A stretch of DNA of 53,742 nucleotides from Actinomycetota bacterium. Lineage in GTDB: Bacteria > Actinomycetota > Actinomycetes > Mycobacteriales > Pseudonocardiaceae. Below the pieces are notes generated by a model, which had not been told where the DNA came from, searched no databases, and worked only from the letters and a program-made list of their open reading frames with translations. Each line of letters opens with the position of its first letter. Position 1 is the first letter of the stretch. The position numbers and the translations under genes are program-made. Shown in pieces: positions 7,745 through 41,942 of the stretch. The stretch is from NCBI GenBank assembly GCA_021324675.1, contig JAJPIR010000249.1:1-53742 (forward strand), in the 5' to 3' direction.

Positions 7745-8506
7745 CTAGATCTTGGCAACCTGACTGAACGAGAGCTCGACCGGTGTCTCCCGACCGAAGA
7801 TGGACACCAGCACTTTGAGCTTCTGGGCGTCGACGTTGACCTCGCTGATCGTCGCGGGCAACGTGGCGAACGGCCCGTCCATGACGGTGACGGACTCACC
7901 CACCTCGTAATCGACCTCAATGGTGGGCTTGGTGCCGGCAGCACTCCCAGCATGCTTACCGGCGCCGACCGGCACCTTGGGCTGCGCCACCCGCGGCGCC
8001 AGGAACTTCAGCACCTCATCAAGGGTCAGCGGAGAAGGTCTGGAGGTGGCACCGACGAATCCGGTGACCCCCGGGGTGTTGCGCACAGCGCTCCAGGAAG
8101 CGTCGTTCAGATCCATCCGGACCAGGATGTAGCCGGGCAGCACCTTGCGCTGCACCTGCTTGCGCTGGCCGTTCTTGATCTCGGTAACTTCTTCGGTGGG
8201 CACCTCCACCTGGAAGATGTAGTCCTCGACGTCCAGCGTCTGGATCCGAGTCTCCAGGTTGGCTTTCACCTTGTTCTCGTAGCCGGCGTAGGAGTGCACG
8301 ACGTACCACTCACCGGGAGCGGCGGCGAGCGCGGAGCGCAGCTCGTCAACCGGGTCGGGTGAAGCGGACTCTGTGCCGACGGTATCGTGCTCGGCATCAT
8401 CAAGGACCTCACTGCCGTGCGAGGTCTCGACGTCGGGTGGGACGTCACCGAACAACCCCGTCAGCTCCTGCCCGTCGTCCGGGGAAGTCCCTCCGGGGAA
8501 AGTCAC
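7745..8506 (-). CDS. nusG: Transcription termination/antitermination factor NusG
   Basis: 253-aa NusG. The first about 70 residues are an acidic extension typical of actinobacteria; the NGN domain starts at [19 protein letters not shown], and the C-terminal KOW domain is visible as [23 protein letters not shown]. Couples RNA polymerase to the ribosome and Rho. GTG start; it follows secE by about 70 bases in the conserved secE-nusG-rplK-rplA order. Confidence 0.98.
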
Positions 8507-8574: not shown

Positions 8575-8913
8575 TCAGCCGAACACGCTTAGCACAAGCC
8601 TGGCCAGGCCCAAGTCCAGCAGGGCGACAAACGCCACCATGAAGCTGACGAAGACGAGCACGACTGACGTGTAGACCACCAGCTCCCGGCGGGTGGGCCA
8701 GATGACCTTGGCGAGCTCCGAGACAACCTCCCGGAGAAACCGATTCAGCCGGCTGACTACTCCCACCTTGGCATCGGAATCCCCCCGAGCCCGGGTTGGA
8801 TGGCCCTTGCCCGCACTCGGCTGGACCTGGGTGAGCCGGGTCCGGCGCATGGCGTGCGGAGCGTCGGCTTCATCCAGCCGGTCGTCCATCTCGTGGGCGG
8901 GTTCCTCGCTCAC
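8575..8913 (-). CDS. secE: Preprotein translocase subunit SecE
   Basis: 112-aa SecE with an actinobacterial charged N-terminal extension, the amphipathic helix FLREVVSELAKVIWPTRREL and a single C-terminal membrane helix (VVYTSVVLVFVSFMVAFVALLDLGLARLV). Clamps SecY in the translocon. GTG start with GGAGGATC just upstream. Confidence 0.97.
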   Translation of the reverse strand: MSEEPAHEMDDRLDEADAPHAMRRTRLTQVQPSAGKGHPTRARGDSDAKVGVVSRLNRFLREVVSELAKVIWPTRRELVVYTSVVLVFVSFMVAFVALLDLGLARLVLSVFG

Positions 8914-8976
8914 GCTGTGATCCTCCGCTCCGCCGTCCCGCGGCGGTTAGCTTGTACTCGCCAGTTCATGTCAGCG

Positions 8977-9049
<73 letters not shown>

Positions 9050-9246: not shown

Positions 9247-11031
9247 TCACACCCGGGTTCCCATGGGTGAATCATGAGCGGGCATCGGCTGCCAATGCCC
9301 TACCAGGTCCCGGTACAGCGGCGAGCAGTCCAGCAACTCCTCGTGGGTACCCAGCTCAGCCCTGGTGCCATCCAGCACGAGAACTCTCCTGGCGTGCAGC
9401 GCTGAGCTGATCCGGTGAGCCATCACCACCAGTGTGCCCGGGCGCTCGGCGAAGGCCCGCTCCACCCGCGCATCCGCCGCCGGATCCAGGTGGCAGGTGG
9501 CCTCATCCAGGATGACTAACCGCGCGGGTGACAGGTAGGCGCGAGCCAGGGTGATCAGCTGCCGCTCACCCGCCGACAGCGCCGCCGGATCCACCTCGGC
9601 GCGATACCCGCCGAGGCGCTCGACCAGTTCCCGACCCCCGACAGCGTCGATTGCCTGTTCAACCTCGGCAACCGGGGCGCCGTCGCGCAGATAGGTCAGG
9701 TTCTCTTCGACTGTGCCGGCGAAGACGTAGGCCTCCTGCGGAATCAGCACGCGGCACCGGGCCAGTTCCTGGCTTTCCCATGAGCGCAAGCTGGCGCCAC
9801 CGAGAAGTGCCTGACCGGCCTGTGGCTCGAGCAAGCCCGCCATGATTCCCGCGAGGGTCGACTTGCCGACCCCACTGGGCCCCACGATGGCCAGGTGATC
9901 GCCGTCGGGCACCACCAGGTCCAGGTCACGGATCACGGGATCGGCCTGGCGACCGTAGGCGAAGGTGACGCCGCGCAGTTCCAGGACCGACCCGCCAGGG
10001 CAAGCGTCGGGTGGTAGATCACCGCAGGCATGACCATCGCTGGTCGCCGCGGCGGGAAGTTCCGCAGCCTCCACGATACGGCGCAACGTGACCAGCAACC
10101 ACAGACCGTTGCCGCCGACGCCGCGGATCAGGGTGCGCAGAGCGGGCTGAAGTGCCATGGACACGTAGGTGATGGCACCCAGCAGCGTGCCGGTCGTGGC
10201 GCCGCGCGACATCAGCCAGGGCGATCCGACAAGAATGAGCAGGAGCGGAACCCACATGCCGATACCCATGGCCGCGGTTCGCATCGTGGTGACCTGAGCC
10301 AGGCGAGTCGCCGCGTGCTCCTGCACATTGATACTGCGACCTGCCATGACACGTATGTGGTCCTCGGCTCCGCACGCGACGACGTCCCGCAAGCCGCTGG
10401 TCACCGTGGTGATCGCCTCGGCGATGCCCTCGTCCGCCAGAAGCGCTTCGCGCTGGGCGGTGGCCATGGCCCGCAGTGCCCCGAGAAAGAACCCGAGGCC
10501 GAGCAACAGCGGGGGCAAGACCAAGGCAACGGCAAGCGGGGCAAGAGCAAACAAACCGAGTAGCGCGCTCGTCGTGGTGACCAGGAATACCTGCGTCACC
10601 ATGATCACGCTGGCGAATGACTCCCGGACCATGTCCACTTGGTGAGTCAGCCTGGCCACCGCAGCGCTACCGGCCGATTCACCACCGATGGTGCATCGAT
10701 TCAGTACACCACTCACGACGAGATCAACCAGATCGTTTCGGAACGGCTCGACGAGTTCCGCGAGCCGCAGGTAGGTCTGGCGAATCCCGACCGCACCAAC
10801 GAGCGCGGCCAGCATGAGCAACCCCAACCAGCCAAAACCTAGGATGGGCCGGCCAGCCAGGAAACCCCGGTCAACGGCTGCGGCGACCAGGCGGCCGGAC
10901 AGGAAGGCCGGGACCGCGGCCACGGCGGACCAGGCGAGGACGCGGGCCATCAACCCGCGCTGCCGCCGGAGCACACCGTATAGCAGCCGCCAGTGCGTGG
11001 CCTGTGACGAGCCCGACTTCTTGACCGTCAT
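9247..11031 (-). CDS. Class III lanthipeptide ABC exporter, half-transporter 2
   Basis: 594-aa fused membrane/ATPase half-transporter. About six membrane helices span residues 30-310; the nucleotide-binding domain has Walker A GPSGVGKST, Q-loop IPQEAYVF, signature LSAGERQ (a variant of LSGGQ), Walker B RLVILDEAT with the catalytic Glu, and switch His in VMAHRIS. It overlaps the upstream exporter gene by four bases (ATGA), so the two proteins are translationally coupled and very likely form a heterodimer, like RamA/RamB and AmfA/AmfB of the SapB/AmfS operons. Its partner has a weakened catalytic site, so this subunit probably supplies the competent one. Inferred substrate: the modified product of the precursor at 12833-12958. 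Confidence 0.88.
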   Translation of the reverse strand: MTVKKSGSSQATHWRLLYGVLRRQRGLMARVLAWSAVAAVPAFLSGRLVAAAVDRGFLAGRPILGFGWLGLLMLAALVGAVGIRQTYLRLAELVEPFRNDLVDLVVSGVLNRCTIGGESAGSAAVARLTHQVDMVRESFASVIMVTQVFLVTTTSALLGLFALAPLAVALVLPPLLLGLGFFLGALRAMATAQREALLADEGIAEAITTVTSGLRDVVACGAEDHIRVMAGRSINVQEHAATRLAQVTTMRTAAMGIGMWVPLLLILVGSPWLMSRGATTGTLLGAITYVSMALQPALRTLIRGVGGNGLWLLVTLRRIVEAAELPAAATSDGHACGDLPPDACPGGSVLELRGVTFAYGRQADPVIRDLDLVVPDGDHLAIVGPSGVGKSTLAGIMAGLLEPQAGQALLGGASLRSWESQELARCRVLIPQEAYVFAGTVEENLTYLRDGAPVAEVEQAIDAVGGRELVERLGGYRAEVDPAALSAGERQLITLARAYLSPARLVILDEATCHLDPAADARVERAFAERPGTLVVMAHRISSALHARRVLVLDGTRAELGTHEELLDCSPLYRDLVGHWQPMPAHDSPMGTRV

Positions 11032-12725
11032 GCTGGTTTCCTGCCGTCAGGGCCGCCTGGCGAAAGTCCCTCGTCGAACACCTCGCGGTAGCCCGGCTGT
11101 TTCCACAGCTCGTGGTGCGGCGCCAGGCAACGCACCCGGCCGCCGTCAAGCCAGGCGACGAGGTCGGCATGGGCCGCGGTCGAGGCCCGGTGCGCGACGA
11201 CGAGGCGGGTGCGGTCTGCCAGCGCGCCGGTCAGTACCTGCCTGATGTGATGCTCGGTGACGGTGTCCAGGCTTGCGGCGACATCATCGAGCACAAGTAC
11301 TCGTGCGGGGTGGGCGAACGCGCGCGCGAGCCCGATCCGCTGGATCTCGCCGCCGGACATCCGCGCGTCGGCCAGCCTGGTTTGGTATCCCCGGGGCATC
11401 CGCCGGATGAAGCCGTCAGCGCACGCTGCCCGCGCCGCAGCAGCCACTTCACGCTGAGTCGGTATGCGCTCGCCGAGGGCGATCACGTCCGTAAGGGTGT
11501 CCCCGATGAGTGCCGGGCGTTCGAAGCCGTAGCCCACGGCGCGGCGCAGTTCGTGCCGATCCAGTTCGGGCAACGGCACCCCATCGAGCAACACCTGTCC
11601 CTCGTCCGGATCCACGAGCCGGCCAACGAGCGCGGCGAGGAGGGACTTGCCACTACCGCTGCGTCCCACCACCGCGACGAGAGCACCGCCGGGAACCACG
11701 AGATCAAGATCTTGGAGGACCGGAATCCCTCGCTCCCGGACCGTGACCGCACGAAACTCCACCCGACCTCTGCCCTCCGGCAGCGGTATGGCCCCGTACT
11801 TCGCCCCAGGTTCGGCCAAGACCTCCGCGGTCCGCCCTGCAGCGGCACGTACCCGGGCGAGTCGTGCTATCGAGTTCACCGCTGAGCCGATCCCGGCAGC
11901 CAGCCCGACGTACTGCGTGGCCGCCAGCACTTCTCCTGCGCTGATCAGTCCCCGTCCGAGCTCAATGCCCGCAATCGCGAGCACGGCGACCTGGAGCACG
12001 GGAACCAGCACCGCCTGCTGAGCGGCCAGACGCGTCTGTACGCGCCACATACCCATTCCCGCGCTGTGCAGATCGGGCAACGGGGCGAGCACGCGCCGGC
12101 GTTCGCGGGCCGTGGTCTGGGCGGCGGCGATGGAGCGTGCGCCGGCCAGCGCATCGACCAGCCGGACGGCGATACGGCCCTGCGCCCGCAGGTAGCGCTC
12201 GGCCAGCTCTGAGGCGTTCCGGACGTTGCTGCGCACCATCACCAGCAGCACCGGGGCACCAGCGAGAAAGGTCAGGCACAGCGCGGGGTCAATGAGGGCA
12301 AGCGCAACGATGCCGCCAAGCGCAGGTAACAATGCCGCGACCGCCCGAACCATCACGGTGCCTGCCCGCCCAGCCTCAGCGGCGTTGCCGACCATGCGGG
12401 TCGTGATGTCTCCCACCTGGAACTGGCGCGTTGCGTGCATGCCCAGGGCAAGGATGTGATCGAGGACAGATCTGCGCAACCACGCCGTAGCCCGCGCGGT
12501 GCCCACACCGCTAGCAAGATCATCAACAGCGCCGCTGGCGATGAGCAACCCCACCAACAGCCCGCAGCCCACCAGCCACGGTGTGGGGTCATGACCCCCC
12601 AAGACGGCGTCGACGGTGCCACCGAGCACCGCTGGGAACACCGTTTCGACACCGGCAAGGGTCAGCGACGCGATCAGGAGTATCGCGGTCCAGGGTCCAC
12701 CGCGCCGCACGGCTCGCAGGATCAT
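11028..12725 (-). CDS. Class III lanthipeptide ABC exporter, half-transporter 1
   Basis: 565 aa from the chosen ATG (MILRAVRRGGPW). Membrane domain of about six helices, then an ATPase domain with Walker A GRSGSGKS, signature MSGGEIQR, Walker B VLVLDDVA and switch His VVAHRAS. The residue after Walker B Asp is Asp instead of Glu, the usual mark of the degenerate site in heterodimeric ABC exporters. The frame is open further upstream to 12977, but that part merely reads through the precursor gene out of frame; the ATG at 12725, after the two hairpins, or a GTG at 12767 are the realistic starts. Neither has a strong ribosome-binding site, so coupling or hairpin control is possible. Confidence 0.85.
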   Translation of the reverse strand: MILRAVRRGGPWTAILLIASLTLAGVETVFPAVLGGTVDAVLGGHDPTPWLVGCGLLVGLLIASGAVDDLASGVGTARATAWLRRSVLDHILALGMHATRQFQVGDITTRMVGNAAEAGRAGTVMVRAVAALLPALGGIVALALIDPALCLTFLAGAPVLLVMVRSNVRNASELAERYLRAQGRIAVRLVDALAGARSIAAAQTTARERRRVLAPLPDLHSAGMGMWRVQTRLAAQQAVLVPVLQVAVLAIAGIELGRGLISAGEVLAATQYVGLAAGIGSAVNSIARLARVRAAAGRTAEVLAEPGAKYGAIPLPEGRGRVEFRAVTVRERGIPVLQDLDLVVPGGALVAVVGRSGSGKSLLAALVGRLVDPDEGQVLLDGVPLPELDRHELRRAVGYGFERPALIGDTLTDVIALGERIPTQREVAAAARAACADGFIRRMPRGYQTRLADARMSGGEIQRIGLARAFAHPARVLVLDDVAASLDTVTEHHIRQVLTGALADRTRLVVAHRASTAAHADLVAWLDGGRVRCLAPHHELWKQPGYREVFDEGLSPGGPDGRKPA

Positions 12726-12752
12726 CCGGTCCCGTCCGGACGCCAGCCAGGA

Positions 12753-12781
12753 CCCTGCTCCGGCCACTGGCCGGAGCAGGG
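12753..12781 (-). terminator. Strong hairpin between precursor and exporter genes
   Basis: Perfect 13-bp arms (CCCTGCTCCGGCC / GGCCGGAGCAGGG) with a three-base loop, located after the precursor stop and before the exporter start. RiPP operons often carry a partial terminator here so that the precursor is made in excess of the exporters; that role is inferred. Confidence 0.7.
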
Positions 12782-12794
12782 CATCATCCCGCTG

Positions 12795-12823
12795 GTGAGG
12801 ATGCGCCGGGCAGCGATCCTCAC
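12795..12823 (-). repeat. Second inverted repeat downstream of the precursor gene
   Basis: Eight-base arms GTGAGGAT / ATCCTCAC around 13 bases, beginning 10 bases past the precursor stop. Probably mRNA 3'-end stabilisation or part of the attenuator with the hairpin at 12753-12781. Confidence 0.5.
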
Positions 12824-12832
12824 TGGCGTTGC

Positions 12833-12958
12833 TCAGCCGCACAGCAGCAGGCTGAGGCCGCTCCCGCCGCCGTGGCTGTCGCTGTCGCCGAAGCTCGCCA
12901 TAAGCGCGCCGTTCTGCGCTTCGGCTACCTCCATCTCCTGCAGGTCGAGCAGTGCCAT
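12833..12958 (-). CDS. Class III lanthipeptide precursor peptide (RamS/AmfS-like)
   Basis: 41-aa ORF starting MALLDLQEMEV, which carries the class III leader motif LLDLQ at residues 3-7 (compare AmfS MALLDLQ and RamS MNLFDLQ as I remember them). The core is GDSDSHGGGSGLSLLLCG; its SGLSLLLC is an exact Ser-x2-Ser-x3-Cys ring motif of the kind that class III synthetases turn into labionin or lanthionine, and SLLLCG matches RamS. It has a near-perfect ribosome-binding site (AAGGAGGTGA, 6 bases before ATG) and begins 15 bases after the synthetase stop. AmfS and RamS have two rings; here there is only one, followed by a stop. It is too short for many gene callers. Confidence 0.92.
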   Translation of the reverse strand: MALLDLQEMEVAEAQNGALMASFGDSDSHGGGSGLSLLLCG

Positions 12959-12973
12959 GTGATCTCACCTCCT

Positions 12974-15577
12974 TCACCGGACAGGTGATGCCGCGGAATC
13001 GAGTAGGGCCGAGGTAGACAGCGGGTGGGCGAAGAACGGTAGGTGGGCTGGTGCTGTATGCAAAGCGGCGCCGGCAGCGAGGAGCACCCCGGCGGTGCCA
13101 GTCGCCAGGTCCATGGACAGCCTGAGCTGCGCGTCGCCCGGGAATGCCGCATAGCCCAGGTAGTCGACGGCATGCCAGGCCAAGCGGCGGATGTGATCGC
13201 TGACAATGCGGTCTCGCCGGCCGCCCGCCGCATGGCTGAGGTACAGGATCATGCCCGCGCGGCCTCGGAAGAGGCCAGCCTGGATGTAGAAGGATGCCGA
13301 CGCCGCGCGCCGGATGCGACTCGCTGCCTCGGTGAATTGGTCATCGGCGCGATGGGCGAGGTACTCGTCAAGGACGAGGCCGATGCCGGCGCTGCCTTCG
13401 GCGAGGTAGCCCATGGTTCGCCAGCCCTCATTGACGTGCAGGCATCCGTCGTCGCGGATAACGCAACACCCGAGCTCTTGCTGCAATGCAGTTCGCGCCA
13501 GGTCGAGCAGGGCTGGCTCGGCGAGTTGCTCGTAGAGGCGGATGAACAGCAGGGCTGGACCGGCGCGACCATGCATGAGCCCAGCCCGGGGACGGGAACC
13601 GCCGCCCACCTCGCCAGCCGTCCCCAGATGCTCGATCCGGTCTGCCACCGTCTGCGCCACGGTCAGGGCCGTGCTGCGCAACGATGGATCTGCGGTGACA
13701 GCGGCAAAATGCGCCAGGTTCAGGCCGATGCCGGCCAACCCGCCGTAGAGGTCCAAACCGAGCCGATCCCACCTGCCGTCCAGCTCGGTAGTGCAGCTAT
13801 CCAGGACCTTAAGCGCATCGGCCCGGTAACCGAGGTGGTCGAGCACGTATGCCACGCCGTGCAGACCGTCGTAGAAGCCCAACCGGGTAGTGCGAGCAGC
13901 CGGATGCGCGACCCGATGCAACAGCCACTCCTCGTGCTCCGGGTATCGGCCCGCACCGGTGACGTCCAGCGCGTAGAGCACCCCGGCTGCGCCGTGCGCG
14001 ATGTTCAGACCGCCAGTGTGGAACTGCTCGATGTCGCCGGGAAAAAGCCGGTCGTCACGCTCCGGGCTGGCACTGGCCAGAATGGCTCCGGTCAGTGATT
14101 CACGGATCCGTTCCCAGCCGTTCCGCTGCGGGTCCAGGGGGAACGAGGGATGAGGCAGTGGGGAGCCTGGCCGACCAACGATGACCTCCACCGCCTCGTC
14201 GAGGAAGGCCTCGGGAACCGGGAACGACTCAGCGATCACCGCGGCGAAGTCCACCGCTTTGGTCCGATCGATCGCGAGCAAGGTGGTCAGCGGCAGGAAC
14301 AAGAACAGGCGTACGCACGCCAGCGCGTAACGGTCAATGTCGAAACCCGTACGGTCCTGAGGCGCGGAGAAACCCGGATTAGCGAGGGTCTGCCGCCGGC
14401 ATTCCTCCACACCGGCCGCAATTTCGAAGTCCACGAGCGCCACCCGGCCGTCGGGCCGGAGCAGAACGTTGAACGGATGCAGATCTCCGACGATCACGCC
14501 ACGGTCGTGAAAGTCGTTGACCGCCCTTTCGAGCTTGGCTTGAATGTCGAGGGCCCATGAGGTGTATTCGGCGATGGTCTGCTCGTCGGCGTCGGGCGTG
14601 ATCAGCGGGTATCGTTCGGTGATCGCTTTGCGCAACGGGATGGCGTCGATGAACTCCAGAGCCAAGAAGTGATGCTCACCTAGCGTGAATGCGCCATGCA
14701 CCGCTGGCACGACGTCCAGCCCAGCCAACCGCCCCAGCATCTCCTGTTCCCGGCGCAGCCGGGCTACCGCGTCTGTGCCGTCGATGTCCAGCCCTGCGTG
14801 CGGCCGGGCCTCTTTGAGGACGACCTGCGCACCAGTCGGAATATGCTGGCCCAGGTAAAGACCCCCGCCATTGGAGAAGTGCAGCGCGCGCTCGATCCGG
14901 TAGGGCAAGTCCCCCACCGTCACACTGTTTCGGGCCGCCAAGTGCGGCTCGAGGAATGTTGGCAGGCGCACCCATTCAGGAACCCGGAAACTCGGGCCCC
15001 GGCGGTCAGGCACTAGTTGCCCTGCTGGGTCCTCGATCGCCAATTCGAGGGAGCCGGTGCCGGACAGGCAGTATCGTTCGAGGAAACCCCCGTAGCGCAC
15101 GTACAGCGGTCCGTCGGCCCACCGCAAGTCGCTGAGCACATAGGGACCTTGGTAGCCGTCCAGCATCTCGCCGAGTTCGGTGAGCACGTCTTTCAGCTGG
15201 GCTTCGTCCGCGGGATATATCGTGACGAACTTCCCGCTTGCTCCCCGGTTTGCATACTTGGCGTTCGCGACCAGCAGCACCTCGAGACTACGCAGAAACT
15301 TGAACGGAATCCCCCGGTCGAAGCAGTAATCCGTGACGACGGCCAGAATCTGCTCGGCGTTGTCAAGGCACGCCGAGACATGCACTTTCCATCCCTGCGC
15401 AGGCAGCTCCCCACCGATTGGGCGAAGGACATGCCAGTTATCACGCTCGCTGGCCGCCCACCCGTCAGGCGCCGGAGCACGACTCAACTCGAATTCTCGA
15501 GGATGCTCGACCAACCTGGATGTGGAGTCGTAAAAATATGCATCGACCAAGCAATACGTCTCGTAGCGCCTGTCCAC
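12974..15577 (-). CDS. Class III lanthipeptide synthetase (LanKC)
   Basis: 867-aa three-domain enzyme in the RamC/AmfT family. It phosphorylates Ser/Thr of the precursor, eliminates phosphate and cyclises onto Cys. Residues 1-220: lyase-like domain, opening MDRRYETYCLVDAYFYDS as in other class III enzymes. About 230-500: Ser/Thr kinase domain with Lys in VVLKEARPHAG, catalytic loop GVIVGDLHPFNVLL and metal-binding VDFEIA. About 530-867: LanC-like barrel (GAAGVLYAL, GFYDGLHGVAYVL, GLMHGRAGPALL, EGSAGIGLVL, GLFRGRAGMILYL), without the Cys/His zinc ligands of LanM/LanC, which defines class III. I start at the internal GTG because GGGGGAG precedes it; a GTG 24 bases upstream is the alternative. 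First gene of the operon. Confidence 0.95.
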   Translation of the reverse strand: MDRRYETYCLVDAYFYDSTSRLVEHPREFELSRAPAPDGWAASERDNWHVLRPIGGELPAQGWKVHVSACLDNAEQILAVVTDYCFDRGIPFKFLRSLEVLLVANAKYANRGASGKFVTIYPADEAQLKDVLTELGEMLDGYQGPYVLSDLRWADGPLYVRYGGFLERYCLSGTGSLELAIEDPAGQLVPDRRGPSFRVPEWVRLPTFLEPHLAARNSVTVGDLPYRIERALHFSNGGGLYLGQHIPTGAQVVLKEARPHAGLDIDGTDAVARLRREQEMLGRLAGLDVVPAVHGAFTLGEHHFLALEFIDAIPLRKAITERYPLITPDADEQTIAEYTSWALDIQAKLERAVNDFHDRGVIVGDLHPFNVLLRPDGRVALVDFEIAAGVEECRRQTLANPGFSAPQDRTGFDIDRYALACVRLFLFLPLTTLLAIDRTKAVDFAAVIAESFPVPEAFLDEAVEVIVGRPGSPLPHPSFPLDPQRNGWERIRESLTGAILASASPERDDRLFPGDIEQFHTGGLNIAHGAAGVLYALDVTGAGRYPEHEEWLLHRVAHPAARTTRLGFYDGLHGVAYVLDHLGYRADALKVLDSCTTELDGRWDRLGLDLYGGLAGIGLNLAHFAAVTADPSLRSTALTVAQTVADRIEHLGTAGEVGGGSRPRAGLMHGRAGPALLFIRLYEQLAEPALLDLARTALQQELGCCVIRDDGCLHVNEGWRTMGYLAEGSAGIGLVLDEYLAHRADDQFTEAASRIRRAASASFYIQAGLFRGRAGMILYLSHAAGGRRDRIVSDHIRRLAWHAVDYLGYAAFPGDAQLRLSMDLATGTAGVLLAAGAALHTAPAHLPFFAHPLSTSALLDSAASPVR

Positions 15578-15801: not shown

Positions 15802-16239
15802 TTAGGTCAAGGCTACGGTAGCCGTAGCCTGGCCGAGGACGGCCTGGCCGGCCGCCCGCGCGGTGATTGCGACCACAACGGTGCCGTCGTCGCGTCGTTT
15901 TGCCACCTTGCCGGAGAATTCGATGAGTGCTCCGTCATTGTCATCCGGTACGACCACCGGGCGGGTGAAGCGGACAGCGCAGTCCACGACCGCGCCTGGA
16001 TCGCCGGCCCAGTCGGTGACCAGGCGGGTGGCCAGTGCCATGGTGAGCATGCCGTGCGCGATGACGCCGGGTAGCCCGGCCTCCTGGGCGGCGCGATCAC
16101 TCCAATGGATCGGGTTGAAGTCGCCAGAGGCGCCCGCATAGCGCACCAGATCGGCACGAGCGAGGCGGACCAGCAGCGCGGGCAGTTGATCGCCAACGGC
16201 GACATCGGTGCCACAGCGCCGGTTTACGGGCCTGCTCAT
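15802..16239 (-). CDS. hadB: (3R)-hydroxyacyl-ACP dehydratase subunit HadB-like (MaoC family)
   Basis: 145-aa single hot-dog protein with the hydratase-2 motif SGDFNPIHWSDRAAQEAGLPGVIAHGML (Asp and His of the catalytic pair at about 40 and 45). In mycobacteria HadB is the catalytic subunit paired with HadA in FAS-II. Its ATG overlaps the hadA stop by four bases. A hadC gene is not present next to it. Confidence 0.88.
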   Translation of the reverse strand: MSRPVNRRCGTDVAVGDQLPALLVRLARADLVRYAGASGDFNPIHWSDRAAQEAGLPGVIAHGMLTMALATRLVTDWAGDPGAVVDCAVRFTRPVVVPDDNDGALIEFSGKVAKRRDDGTVVVAITARAAGQAVLGQATATVALT

Positions 16240-17274: not shown

Positions 17275-19845
17275 CTACGGGACCAGGGTAAGCACGGTCT
17301 CGTCCCGCACGCCAGCAGCCCGCACCGTGCGAGCCGCCAACCAGGCGTCGAACCGATCCGGCGCCAGCGGGCGCGAGATCAGGAAGCCTTGCGCGACATC
17401 GCAGCCCATCTCTACCAGCTGATCCCGCGTGGCGTCCTGCTCTACGCCCTCGGCGACAACGCCCAAGCCCAGCGAGTGACCGAGATCGACGATGGCGCGA
17501 ACCACTGCCAGGTCGCCGAGGTCACTGGCCAGTCCGAGCACGAAACTCTTGTCGATCTTGACCTCGTCCACCGGAAGACGTCGCAGGTAGGCAAGCGACG
17601 AATAGCCGGTACCGAAGTCGTCCACGGCAATCCGCACGCCGAGCTCGTGTAACGCACGCAGTACCGGCAGCGCCCGTTCCGGATCGGTCATCACCGCGGA
17701 CTCGGTGAGCTCGAAACCCAGTAGCTCAGCAGGTACCCGGTGTCGTGACAGCGCAAGGGTCACCCGGTGGGGGAACTCGGCATCAGCAAGGTTGCGGACC
17801 GACAGGTTGACCGATACCGATAGCGACAGGCCGCGATCCAGCCAGGTACGGCATTGGGCCAGCGAGCGGTTCAGCACGTAATCGGTGAGCGGATCAATCA
17901 GGCCGGTCGTCTCCACGAGGGTGACGAACTCCGCCGGATCAAGCATCCCGAATTCCGGATGCTCCCAGCGCACGAGTGCCTCTACCCCGATCACCCGGCG
18001 GGTGGGCAACGCGAGCTGGGGCTGGTAATGCACGTCGACTTGCCCAGTTTCCAGGGCCTGGCGGAAGTGGGTGACCAGCTGGAACCTGCGCCCCAGAACC
18101 TGCCCCATGCTCGGCAGGTAGCTGCGGACCGTCTGATCAGTGCCGCGCGCGGACCGCAAGGCCATTTCGGCCCGTTGCAGGAGAGCATCGGCATCCCGCG
18201 TCGGTTCCACCCCGGTCAGCGCGACCCCGACCACCGCGGTGCACTCCACGGCGAGCTTGTCGACCGGATACGGCTTGCTGAGCACGCTCTGCACGCGCTC
18301 CGCTACCCGCAGCGCCTCCTGGCCGTCGACCCCGGTCAGCAGCGCGGCGAACGTGTCACCTTCCAGACGCGCAGTCAGCACCTGGTCTGCCAGGCTGCGG
18401 CAGAGCCGCTCGCCTGCGCCAAGAACCACTCGATCCGCCCACACCTGGCCCAGTGCATCGTTCACCGCGGGCAGCAATCCCAATTCGATCACTATCACCG
18501 CGCCCGGCCGGGAATCTCGGCGCAGTATCTCAGCGGCCGCTTCCCGGAAACCGAGGCGGTTGCGCAGGGTGGTGAGGCTGTCGTGATAGGCGTCATGCCG
18601 CAGCTGGGCCAACAGCCGGCAGTTGTCCAGCGCGGTGGTGAGATGGCTGGCCAGCGTCTCCACTAAGCGCACATCGGCGGCGCCGAAGCCACGCAGGCGG
18701 CTGTGCCGGTCATGAACCTCGATGACGCCCAAGAGTTGATCGGACCCGCGCAGTGCGGCCACGAGCACCTCCGAGGCTCCCCGCACCGCCAGCGCTGCAG
18801 CGACGGCTGGATCCGGATTGCTGTCCAGCAGCCGCATCACTTGACCGGTCCCGGCTGGCAGGTCGGTTGCCAGGATGTCGCCCGGGGTCAACGGACGGGG
18901 TAGTGGCAGGCCCGCTACCACGGTCTGCGGCCCGCTCAGCGCAGGGTTTGCCAGCGTGGGTACCCGCTGCAAGACCACCCGCGTGGCGTTGAGCTGCTCG
19001 CGCGCCAGTTCCATGGCCGCACTCCACGCGCCTTCATCCAGCTCCGGCGCCTCGCCATCACCTTCCCGGCCAACTGCGGCCACCCCGAGGCTGAAGTCGT
19101 TCAGCACTCCCAGATCACGATGATCACGCAGCAGCCCGTAGTAGCCCCGGTACACGCCGGCCAGTGTCACCGCCAACAAAGCGACCAGCACAGCGCCCCA
19201 CGGCACCGTCTCCACCATTTCCGCGGCGGCGAGCCCTAAGGCGGCATTGAGCAGGCCGGTGAGGTAGAGGTGCACCACGGGGCGGGCGCTCTCACCGGGG
19301 CGCCGGCGATCCAGCAGCACAATGAACAGCCAGGTCAGCCAGGACGTCACGGCGTGGGCAATGACGAACCCGGCAAGCACTGCTGCCCACCTGGGTAGGG
19401 CGGACCAGGCCGGCTGGAATACCAGCCGGGCGAGTAGATCGGTGCCCGCGATGGTGAGTGTCGCGTACGAAGCGTTGAACAGCAGCTTGGAGAGTGGGTC
19501 GCGGCGCACCAACCGGGCGATGACGACGACGCCGACGTAGGCCGCCAAGACGACGGGAGCCGGTAGGTACAGCAACCCGATAACCAGCGGGATCTCGGTT
19601 GGAGTGATCCGCGCGCTGTCACGGCGGACCTCGACCTCGATGGCGAGAGCTCGAGCGACCCCGAACGCTGCCGCCAGCCCCAGTCCACCGAGCAGCGTGC
19701 CCATATCGGCCCTGACCGTTGCGGTCGCCACGACGGTCATCCCCGCCACACCCGCGATGACGGTCAGGATGGCTGCGAAGACTTTCGACGCCACCGCTCG
19801 TTCACGCCATGCCGAGACGCCTGACAGACGCCAGGTTGCACGCAC
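17275..19845 (-). CDS. Membrane GAF-GGDEF-EAL protein, likely c-di-GMP phosphodiesterase
   Basis: 856 aa. Residues about 20-235 form a multi-helix membrane sensor region (MASE-like). About 270-410 is a GAF-like domain (EVHDRHSRLRGFGAADVRLVETLA). The GGDEF domain follows (DSLTTLRNRLGF) but its signature reads LEGDTFAAL, so diguanylate cyclase activity is doubtful. The EAL domain is intact: EALVRWEHP, NLSVRNL, ELTESAVM, DDFGTGYSSLAYLRRLPVDEVKIDKSFV, VAEGVE and QGFLISRP, with the acidic metal ligands and Lys. It therefore probably degrades c-di-GMP. GTG start with GGAGG six bases upstream. A 33-aa ORF lies 94 bases upstream on the same strand. Confidence 0.92.
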   Translation of the reverse strand: MRATWRLSGVSAWRERAVASKVFAAILTVIAGVAGMTVVATATVRADMGTLLGGLGLAAAFGVARALAIEVEVRRDSARITPTEIPLVIGLLYLPAPVVLAAYVGVVVIARLVRRDPLSKLLFNASYATLTIAGTDLLARLVFQPAWSALPRWAAVLAGFVIAHAVTSWLTWLFIVLLDRRRPGESARPVVHLYLTGLLNAALGLAAAEMVETVPWGAVLVALLAVTLAGVYRGYYGLLRDHRDLGVLNDFSLGVAAVGREGDGEAPELDEGAWSAAMELAREQLNATRVVLQRVPTLANPALSGPQTVVAGLPLPRPLTPGDILATDLPAGTGQVMRLLDSNPDPAVAAALAVRGASEVLVAALRGSDQLLGVIEVHDRHSRLRGFGAADVRLVETLASHLTTALDNCRLLAQLRHDAYHDSLTTLRNRLGFREAAAEILRRDSRPGAVIVIELGLLPAVNDALGQVWADRVVLGAGERLCRSLADQVLTARLEGDTFAALLTGVDGQEALRVAERVQSVLSKPYPVDKLAVECTAVVGVALTGVEPTRDADALLQRAEMALRSARGTDQTVRSYLPSMGQVLGRRFQLVTHFRQALETGQVDVHYQPQLALPTRRVIGVEALVRWEHPEFGMLDPAEFVTLVETTGLIDPLTDYVLNRSLAQCRTWLDRGLSLSVSVNLSVRNLADAEFPHRVTLALSRHRVPAELLGFELTESAVMTDPERALPVLRALHELGVRIAVDDFGTGYSSLAYLRRLPVDEVKIDKSFVLGLASDLGDLAVVRAIVDLGHSLGLGVVAEGVEQDATRDQLVEMGCDVAQGFLISRPLAPDRFDAWLAARTVRAAGVRDETVLTLVP

Positions 19846-39487: not shown

Positions 39488-41875
39488 TCAGGCCGCTGCC
39501 GCGGCTGGAGTCCTCGCCGGTTCCAGGGCGAGGTCGATCACTTCTCGGACGTCACCGACCAGATGCACGGTGAGCTCATCGCGCACCGACTCGGGCACGT
39601 CGTCCAGATCGGGCTCGTTGCGCCGGGGTAGCAACACCGTGGTGATCCCGGCCCGGTGCGCGGCGAGCAGTTTCTGCTTCACACCACCGATCGGCAGCAC
39701 CCGCCCGGTCAGCGACACTTCACCGGTCATCGCCACGTCGGAGCGCACCGGGCGACCAGACAGCAACGATGCCAGCGCGGTGGTCATGGTGATGCCGGCA
39801 CTGGGCCCGTCCTTGGGCACCGCGCCCGCCGGAACGTGCACGTGGACTCCACGTTCGGCGAGGTCACCGACCGGCAACTCGAGCTCCGCGCCATGCGAGC
39901 GCAGGTATGACAGCGCGATCTGCGCGGATTCCTTCATCACCTCACCGAGTTGCCCGGTGAGCGTGACGTCGGTCGATCCGGTCTCCTTGTCGGCCAGCGA
40001 GGCCTCCACGAACAGCACATCGCCGCCGGCGCCGGTCACCGCAAGCCCGGTCGCCACCCCTGGCACAGCGGTGCGCTCCGCTGACTCCGGGGTGTGCTTG
40101 GGCCGGCCCAGGTACTCGCGCAGATCCTCCGGTCCGATGTGCACCGGGGTGGCCTGCTGGTGCAGTGCCAGGCCGGTGGTCACCTTGTGCAGGATCCGGG
40201 CGATCGACCGCTCCAGCTGCCGCACCCCTGCCTCGCGGGTGTACTCACCGGCCAGCCGGTGCAGCACGGCGTCCTCGATCTGCACGTCTTCCGGGTTCAG
40301 CCCAGCCCGGTCCAGCTGGCGAGGCAGCAAGTGATCGCGCGCGATGGCGACTTTCTCGTCCTCGGTGTACCCGTCCAGAGTGACCAGCTCCATGCGGTCC
40401 AGCAGCGGCGCGGGAATCGCTTCCAGCACGTTGGCCGTCGCCAGGAACATCACATCGGACAGGTCCAGCTCGACTTCCAGGTAGTGATCGCGGAAGGTGT
40501 GGTTCTGCGCCGGGTCGAGTACTTCGAGCAAGGCGGCAGTCGGGTCGCCGCGGAAGTCCGCGCCCAGCTTGTCCACCTCGTCGAGAAGCACGACCGGGTT
40601 CATCGAGCCCGCTTCGGAGATCGCCCGCACGATCCGGCCCGGTAGCGCGCCGACATACGTCCGGCGGTGCCCCCGGATCTCGGCCTCGTCGCGCACACCG
40701 CCCAAAGCGACCCGCACGAACTTGCGGCCCATGGCCCGGGCCACCGACTCACCCAGCGAGGTCTTGCCCACGCCGGGCGGACCCACCAGGGCGAGCACCG
40801 CGCCACTACGCCGCCCGCCTACCACACCCAAGCCGCGGTCGGCCCGCCGGCGCCGCACGGCCAGGTACTCGATGATGCGATCCTTGACCTCATCAAGCCC
40901 GTAGTGGTCGGCGTCGAGCACCTCGCGAGCGCCAGCGATGTCGTAGCTGTCCTCGGTGCGGGAGTTCCACGGCATGGCCAGCACGGTGTCCAGCCAGGTG
41001 CGGATCCAGCCGACCTCTGGCGAGGACTCAGCGGTCCGCTCCAGCTTGTCGACCTCGATCATGGCCGCCTTGTGCACGTGCTCGGGCAGCTCGGCCGCCT
41101 CCACCCGTGCCCGGTAGTCCTGCTCCTCGGTCACCGGCTTGCCGTCCAGCTCGGCCAGTTCCTTGCGGATCGCGGCCAACTGCTGGCGCAGCAGGAACTC
41201 GCGCTGCTGGCGCTCCATGCCTTCCTTGACGTCCTTGTTGATCGTCTCAGCGACATCGAGCTCGGCGAGCTGCTCCTGCGCCCAGGTGATGAGCTTTTCC
41301 AGCCGCGCCACCACATCCGGGGTTTCCAGCAGCCAGAGCTTCTGCTCCTGGGTGAAGTACGACGCGTAGCCGGCCAGGTCGGCCAGCGCGCTGGGTTCGT
41401 CCACCTGACGTACCGAGTCGATGACCTGCCAGGCACCCCGGCGCTGCAGGAGCGTGATCACCAAGCCCCGGTACTCCCGGGCCAGCTCTCGCGCACGGTC
41501 CGGTGCCCCCGTCTCATCCAGGACGGTGGCCTGGACCCACAATGCCGCACCCGGACCCGTGGTACCGGCGCCAATGCGCACCCGGGAGGTGCCCCGCACC
41601 ACCGCGGCCTGCTCTCCCCCAGGCAGCCGGCCGATCTGCTCGAGGAGCGCCCAAGTGCCCACGGAGGCGTACTTGCCATCCAGCCGCGGCACCAGCAGGA
41701 TCCCCGGCTGAGCGGCCCGCTGCTGGGTAGGGTCCCCGGCGGCGGCACGAGCGGCATCGATGGCCGCCCGCACCTCGGGGTCGGCCAGCCTCATCGGAAC
41801 TACCATTCCCGGCAACACAACGACGTCGTCGAGCGGCAGGACCGGCAGTTTCAGAGTTTCCGTCAAGATTGCCAC
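39488..41875 (-). CDS. lon: ATP-dependent protease Lon
   Basis: 795 aa from the GTG of [23 protein letters not shown] (TTG three codons later also possible; no strong ribosome site). N-terminal substrate domain, coiled middle, AAA+ module with Walker [12 protein letters not shown], Walker [12 protein letters not shown], and the Ser-Lys protease domain with catalytic Ser in [14 protein letters not shown] and Lys in [14 protein letters not shown]. Degrades misfolded and regulatory proteins. Full-length and unremarkable. Downstream of ppc with 68 bases between. Confidence 0.96.
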
Positions 41876-41942
41876 GCTTTCAAGCGAGAAGATTGCGTAC
41901 AGACGACTCAACTATGCCCGGCGCGGCACTATTCCCCGGCGC

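Follow-up and report, generated by a model that had tools for sequence, protein, structure and literature searches.

A predicted SapB/AmfS-family class III lanthipeptide operon with a single ring motif in an uncultured Pseudonocardiales genus

The window (the whole stretch of 53,742 nt that was analysed) comes from a soil actinobacterium, a relative of Pseudonocardia from an uncultured Pseudonocardiales genus whose members with a named record are MAGs. Four genes follow each other on the minus strand from position 15577 down to 9247: a gene for a class III lanthipeptide synthetase, or lyase-kinase-cyclase (LanKC, here KC; 12974-15577), the gene lanA for a 41-aa precursor of the SapB/AmfS family (12833-12958), and two genes for ABC exporter halves, which by their order are RamA-like (ABC1; 11028-12725, with the start proposed below) and RamB-like (ABC2; 9247-11031). 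A 14-bp perfect inverted repeat (12753-12781, minus strand) lies in the spacer between lanA and ABC1. The sequence-only reading had described a class III operon with the gene order KC - precursor - ABC - ABC, matching ramC-S-A-B; we found this order on the minus strand, and the assignment to class III was borne out by curated profile models for both the synthetase and the precursor. Judged by gene content and profile scores, the locus is a complete predicted class III lanthipeptide operon of the SapB/AmfS family.

The operon is flanked by housekeeping genes. Upstream, the insertion is bordered by a hadB-like dehydratase gene (15802-16239, minus strand), part of a hadA-hadB-like pair, with a MaoC-type domain and a HadB model score below the cut-off; downstream, the border is a tRNA-Trp gene (8976-9049, minus strand), beyond which lie secE (8575-8913) and nusG (7745-8506). 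Further upstream, a gene for a GAF-GGDEF-EAL protein of cyclic di-GMP signalling (17275-19845) adjoins a tRNA-Met/tRNA-Thr pair upstream of hadA. A Lon protease gene is present at 39488-41911, ~24 kb off the operon; we regard it as a housekeeping gene unlinked to the peptide.

The synthetase scored 1101.5 bits against the NCBIfam model of class III LanKC (NF038151, cut-off 575), with the match covering positions 1-831 of 833, and 400.5 bits against the class IV (LanL) model, under the cut-off of 650. The domains RamC_N (PF25816, 271.9 bits), Pkinase and LANC_like all exceeded their gathering scores. A class IV or class II synthetase was thus ruled out by the curated profile scores. The open reading frame extends from 15601; we prefer the GTG at 15577 as start, and the motif VD[KR]RYE is conserved in relatives of the same type. 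To check the active sites, KC was aligned with ThurKC (PDB 8sap) and residues were matched by hand, with the residue list taken from PMC10604976. All eight lyase residues named for ThurKC are retained, and so are the kinase Lys, the helix-C Glu, the catalytic-loop Asp and the DFE motif; the retained residues are equivalents of ThurKC K65, H67, K94, K108, K117, D152, R163, R191, K257, E279 and D364 together with DFE. A loop Asn is present in the KC motif GDLHPFN, where its aligned number differs from the Asn366 printed in the ThurKC paper. The positions aligned to the three zinc ligands of the cyclase are occupied by Ala734, Phe778 and Arg779 (numbering from the 15601 start), as is expected of a metal-independent class III cyclase. 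One substitution counts against activity: the Asp proposed as the base of the ThurKC cyclase is replaced by Arg in KC. Altogether, the synthetase looks active from its residues. Loss of kinase or lyase residues on alignment, which the sequence-only reading had named as evidence that would count against it, was not seen in the comparison with ThurKC, and the search of synthetase and precursor against class III families that it had proposed placed both above the curated cut-offs. A pseudogene or degenerate synthetase was ruled out by the active-site alignment together with the dN/dS values given below.

The precursor, MALLDLQEMEVAEAQNGALMASFGDSDSHGGGSGLSLLLCG, has the leader motif LLDLQ at residues 3-7 and scored above the cut-offs of both Pfam RamS (PF19402, 34.7 over 24.3) and the NCBIfam SapB/AmfS model (NF033212, 43.2 over 25). 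Its core, SGLSLLLC (12839-12862, minus strand), contains the sole ring motif, Ser33-x2-Ser36-x3-Cys40, as found by translation and motif scan; Cys40 is the sole Cys, which limits the peptide to one thioether ring at most. Whether that ring is a lanthionine or a labionin is a matter that cannot be read from sequence (PMC13380574). The leader motif, the exactly one Ser-x2-Ser-x3-Cys ring and the hydrophobic, SapB-like core had all been noticed from the letters alone, and all three stand. The two tandem SxxSxxxC motifs of characterised SapB/AmfS members, a trait that is common in these members and lies outside the curated family rule, are absent, with one motif in their place. The claim that the precursor is very short had to be given up: 41 aa is an ordinary length among the 90 candidates of our survey (27 to 55, median 38.5), of which 55 are shorter, 5 equal and 30 longer.

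Both exporter genes were identified by Pfam domains (ABC_membrane and ABC_tran in ABC1, ABC_tran in ABC2). The frame of ABC1 is open from 12977, across the precursor, and has a candidate ATG near 12725. Similarity to the exporters of a second operon type of the genus (type B, below) begins at residue 72-83 of this longer frame (at residue 41 for locus L098), with loci L104 and L101 contributing partial sequence; ABC1 therefore probably starts near 12725. Walker B ends in LDD in ABC1, with a degenerate catalytic Glu, and in the canonical LDE in ABC2; DD was seen in 51 of 51 aligned loci for the first half and DE in 50 of 50 for the second. Such a pairing is typical of heterodimeric exporters in which one of the ATPase sites is degenerate. 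We also considered TTA (bldA) codons. Most amf-like clusters of Streptomyces have TTA codons, in the ramR-like or the ramC-like gene (PMC4255298); in the window operon ABC2 (9247-11031) has one TTA, and KC and lanA have none, and this lead was dropped.

The gap between hadB and tRNA-Trp holds the operon in the genome of the window (G000) and in two other species (G002 and G006), whose same-site orthologous synthetases have identities of 83% and 76%. Of 11 genomes of the genus, 10 gave a match for hadB and 10 for nusG; G004 gave neither, and in G009 nusG was on a separate contig. In seven of the 10 scorable genomes (G001, G003, G005, G007, G008, G009 and G010) the site is empty: hadB leads straight on to tRNA-Trp and secE, and the hadB and secE matches are ~310-420 bp apart. 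Two of the seven carry a relative of KC elsewhere in the genome (69% identity in G007, 67% in G010). The operon is thus dispensable to the genus.

Between G000 and G002, the closest genome that also has the operon, the dN/dS values were 0.16 for KC, 0.11 for ABC1 and 0.21 for ABC2, with 0.13 for the neighbouring hadB; the three large genes are under purifying selection. The corresponding dS values were 0.57, 0.57 and 0.46, with 0.53 for hadB and 0.27 for the more conserved nusG; between G000 and G006 they were 0.74, 0.66 and 0.75, with 0.74 for hadB. This similarity of dS between the operon and hadB fits vertical descent at the site ever since the three genomes last shared an ancestor. Given the orthologous operons at the same site in two other species and dN/dS of 0.11-0.21 for the three large genes, the operon is not a chance arrangement. 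Integrase-driven insertion into a tRNA gene was rejected as its origin: tRNA-Trp is intact, the insertion is on its 5′ side, no integrase was found among the 20 window proteins scanned, and no flanking repeat was obvious when occupied and empty sites were compared side by side by eye.

To place the single ring among relatives, we scanned 93 LanKC loci, some of which gave no precursor, and obtained 90 distinct precursor candidates, with the ring motif relaxed to S/T-x2-S/T-x2-5-C. Two ring motifs were counted in 55 candidates, one in 32, three in 2 and none in 1, the last being a false entry; the survey misses the real precursors of L034, L096 and G001:C247, and some of its entries begin at a late start codon. 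Fifteen of the one-ring candidates come from this genus and 17 from others, including Nocardia, Nocardiopsis and Saccharopolyspora. Within the genus, precursor-family matches numbered 18 in 11 genomes, with one ring motif in 17 of the 18 and two in a precursor on contig C4 of G000. Tandem precursors also occur: at G055:C100 (L013/L108) three precursor genes stand behind one LanKC, and two of them encode identical peptides. In G001:C247 (L146:7680-7810) a further one-ring precursor shortly follows a small segment that weakly resembles LanKC, and this at the N-terminus only (36% over residues 3-63), possibly a remnant or an assembly artefact.

Precursors related to that of the window form a graded series. 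The region ahead of the C-terminal ring reads SRRSRRC in L034 (then SRLSLALC), SRASKGC in L039 (then SGLSLLLC), RSGSGC in G006 (then SDISLLLC), NSHGGDG in G002 (then SGLSVALC) and SDSHGGG in the window (then SGLSLLLC). Judging from this series, the one-ring state probably arose as the first ring eroded and the second was retained, a direction drawn from the extant sequences. In B-type precursors the serines are gone and at least one Cys is often retained, within an Asp/His/Cys-rich segment. Further small lanthionines may form in the G006 or B-type peptides; a second ring is impossible only where, as in the window, the precursor has a single Cys.

The second class III operon type, B, has a synthetase with ~59% identity to that of the window type, A. 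A KC match with a precursor was found in 11 of 11 genomes of the genus; in G001 the KC is cut by the contig end, with 64% identity over the remainder. The B loci are L090 (G000:C266), L092, L094, L096-L099, L101, L104, L105 and L109. Their precursors have one ring with an Asp/His/Cys-rich segment ahead of it, as in L101, YDDCHDHYDRCDRRC. In a KC tree, made by a quick search in which SH-aLRT was the only branch support and long branches were flagged, the ten B rows formed one clade. Type A and a Pseudonocardia MAG (L039) formed another, to which a Geodermatophilaceae MAG (L034) is sister. G000 may have a third class III operon: N-terminal and C-terminal LanKC fragments are at the ends of contigs C242 (L103) and C4 (L102), and the suggestion comes from the two-ring precursor that adjoins the C-terminal fragment on C4.

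A convergent gene for a LuxR-type response regulator is located behind the B exporters in nine of the nine loci with a long enough stretch (L101 and L104, with shorter stretches, are left out of this count, and the domains were identified for two of the nine); the paralogous locus on contig C266 of G000 is among the carriers. The two B regulators that were scanned stayed below the cut-off of every NCBIfam model, so that the label ‘RamR-like’ refers to position and domains only. Within the 53.7 kb of the window nothing matched the B-locus regulator at E ≤ 1e-10, which agrees with the earlier remark that no ramR-type regulator is adjacent, and the A loci L091, L093, L095 and L145 gave no match either. 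Outside the genus, about 25 class III loci have a match to it on the downstream side of KC; four further matches (L022, L039, L086 and L088) are weaker or otherwise placed, that of L039, the MAG in the A clade, being a 33% match upstream of KC. The cluster of S. coelicolor depends on the adjoining ramR, and a 2013 survey gave ramR as restricted to streptomycetes (both PMC4255298). The upstream regions of the B operons are strongly conserved and contain an inverted-repeat-like block, GTGTGAATCA...TGTGATTC; a regulatory motif common to A and B was rejected, as the A upstream regions, read by eye, showed nothing B-like. By these comparisons the window operon is a regulator-less paralogue of the genus's regulator-linked ram/amf-like operon.

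The inverted repeat behind lanA is proposed to be an attenuator or an mRNA 3′ end. The 101-nt region 12735-12835 folds better than its shuffles (z −4.53). In an alignment of five A-clade sequences, with G010 and L039 cut to windows chosen to hold the hairpin and with G007, whose repeat sits elsewhere in the spacer, excluded, 93.8% of the stem cells are paired (at most 50.8% in slid controls) and 4 of 13 stem pairs are changed on both sides. Among 500 shuffles, a covariation score at least this high came up once, a share of paired cells at least this large 7 times, at least four two-sided pairs 23 times and at least as many pair types 402 times; the shuffle controls are modest. A perfect stem of at least 10 bp within 220 nt of the precursor stop was seen in 50 of 79 loci, compared with 15 of 924 windows inside KC genes; it is missing in the other 29 loci, the 79 loci include duplicates of a single genome, and windows in coding sequence make an imperfect control for intergenic DNA. 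The hairpin likely raises precursor mRNA over exporter mRNA, and, as stems of differing letters occur in 50 of 79 loci, actinobacterial class III operons may often have an attenuator behind the precursor. Among the papers listed by a literature search on this role, none was on class III operons to judge by its title, which is not proof of absence.

No leader protease was found among the six flanking proteins scanned, and in this range the observation that no protease is adjacent holds. Elsewhere in the genome, an M1 peptidase of 857 aa (G000:C89) is a candidate: it scored 1356 bits to PDB 7v9n (‘Alanine aminopeptidase’), which we take to be the lanthipeptide peptidase EryP. Its score of 1176 bits to the ordinary aminopeptidase 8t41 (‘Aminopeptidase N’) counts against a leader-protease role. 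A second M1 protein (G000:C94) is more distant. Actinobacterial class III clusters are usually without a protease (PMC7268733), and leaders are removed by AplP-type M1 peptidases that are often encoded outside the cluster (PMC10885120).

Genes of the SsgA family, a marker of mycelial actinomycetes, are present in 11 of 11 genomes of the genus. Our chaplin search covered 41 genomes, 11 of the genus and 30 others; at E ≤ 0.001 none of the 11 had a match and 7 of the 30 had. The presence of SsgA with undetected chaplins would fit a surface-active or signalling role of the peptide. Tested peptides of the SapB/AmfS family promote aerial growth, and durhapeptin needs a hydrophobic residue (PMC13380574). 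Most likely, on family membership and gene content, the product is a secreted, surface-active or signalling SapB-like peptide.

The reading that we find highly probable is that of a functional class III operon of the SapB/AmfS family making a one-ring exported peptide. LanKC would bind the LLDLQ leader helix, phosphorylate Ser33 and Ser36 and then eliminate the phosphates, and addition of Cys40 would close a single C-terminal lanthionine or labionin ring. The peptide would be secreted by the heterodimeric ABC exporter with its one degenerate ATPase site, and its leader trimmed by a housekeeping AplP-type M1 aminopeptidase encoded elsewhere. The hairpin after lanA would keep precursor mRNA in excess over exporter mRNA. 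The peptide, having presumably lost the N-terminal ring of its two-ring relatives, would probably act at the cell surface, as a surfactant or a kin-specific developmental signal. In this reading the sequence itself shows the gene set, the residues, their conservation, the site and the covariation of the hairpin, from which the ring chemistry, the processing, the attenuation, the direction of ring loss and the biological role are inferred.

The family to which the precursor belongs, with tested members acting on aerial growth (PMC13380574), and the lack of any recognised immunity gene among the six flanking proteins scanned speak against the one-ring peptide being a narrow-spectrum antimicrobial or interference peptide and not a morphogen. 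This alternative, which we consider unlikely, draws on the non-developmental properties of other class III peptides, noursin binding copper (PMC10206099), and on the operon being an extra copy with no linked regulator, its site empty in 7 of 10 scorable genomes. A wider scenario for a genus with SsgA and no detected chaplins seems quite improbable to us: the single-ring SapB-type set would constitute its main surface-active morphogens, ring 1 would have been lost independently in both paralogous lines, one line would have an Asp/His/Cys-rich, possibly metal-binding head in its place, and the window copy would have escaped RamR-type control by moving beside the tRNA-Trp/secE block. We judge it very unlikely that the operon is a decaying duplicate on its way out, with ring 1 lost by drift and not by selection: ring-1 residues are eroded to differing degrees in relatives, the linked regulator is missing and some species have no operon, but three species have the four genes intact, the three large genes have dN/dS of 0.11-0.21, next to 0.13 for hadB, the leader and C-terminal ring motifs are kept, and the B operon, present in all 11 genomes, likewise has one ring motif. 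SapB processing starts just before ring 1, and such processing would remove the hydrophilic pre-ring segment of the window precursor, GDSDSHGGGSGLS, which has a single His and no Cys. It is accordingly very doubtful that this segment is part of a mature peptide whose function is metal binding by an Asp/His(/Cys)-rich tail anchored by the hydrophobic ring, in spite of the Asp/His/Cys-rich segments of B-type precursors (e.g. YDDCHDHYDRCDRRCGSEISLLLCGD in L101) and of the copper binding known for another class III peptide, noursin (PMC10206099).

The preferred reading, a functional operon for a one-ring SapB/AmfS-family peptide, can be set beside known systems. With ramCSAB (SapB, Streptomyces coelicolor) and amfTSAB (AmfS, S. 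griseus) the window operon shares the order KC-S-ABC-ABC, the LLDLQ-type leader and the curated families, and the genus's B operon shares their regulator arrangement, a response-regulator gene behind the exporters; the window operon differs in having one ring and not two, no linked regulator and a genus without a detected chaplin. Durhapeptin and other two-ring SapB/AmfS peptides have the family, the LLDLQ leader and the hydrophobic core in common with the window precursor, whereas their cores carry two tandem SxxSxxxC motifs (PMC13380574). One S-x2-S-x2-5-C motif per core, as in the window, is found in bacinapeptins and paenithopeptins (Pre_24), which are from Firmicutes and lose their leaders to pairs of M16B proteases that cut at a QA(A/V)(D/E) motif; one-ring class III peptides are thus already published (PMC8960859). 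Noursin likewise combines a class III synthetase with one labionin crosslink, and differs by an extra His-to-butyrine crosslink, a clustered S9 peptidase and a separate LanKC subgroup (PMC10206099). Among the papers listed by a search of titles and abstract openings, with subscription journals mostly outside its coverage, none described a one-ring SapB/AmfS-family peptide in Pseudonocardiales.

A location outside the usual Streptomyces context, which the sequence-only reading took as special, is not so: a LanKC match (E ≤ 1e-30) was found in 24 of 49 genera among 61 genomes, class III clusters outside Streptomyces have long been known (PMC4255298), and class III peptides of Saccharopolyspora and Actinomadura are in the reference list of PMC10885120. 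Taken merely as a class III gene cluster, the operon is ordinary. What is new is that the precursors of the genus are nearly all one-ring, that a regulator-less paralogue exists in the same genome as a regulator-linked operon, and that the hairpin covaries. SapB and AmfS have two rings; a genus with precursors that nearly all keep only the C-terminal ring motif, and with intermediate-looking relatives, amounts to a natural experiment on how much of that structure morphogenetic activity needs and on what the minimal active unit is. With a regulator-linked and a regulator-less operon side by side in one genome, the role of the regulator could be told apart from that of the peptide.
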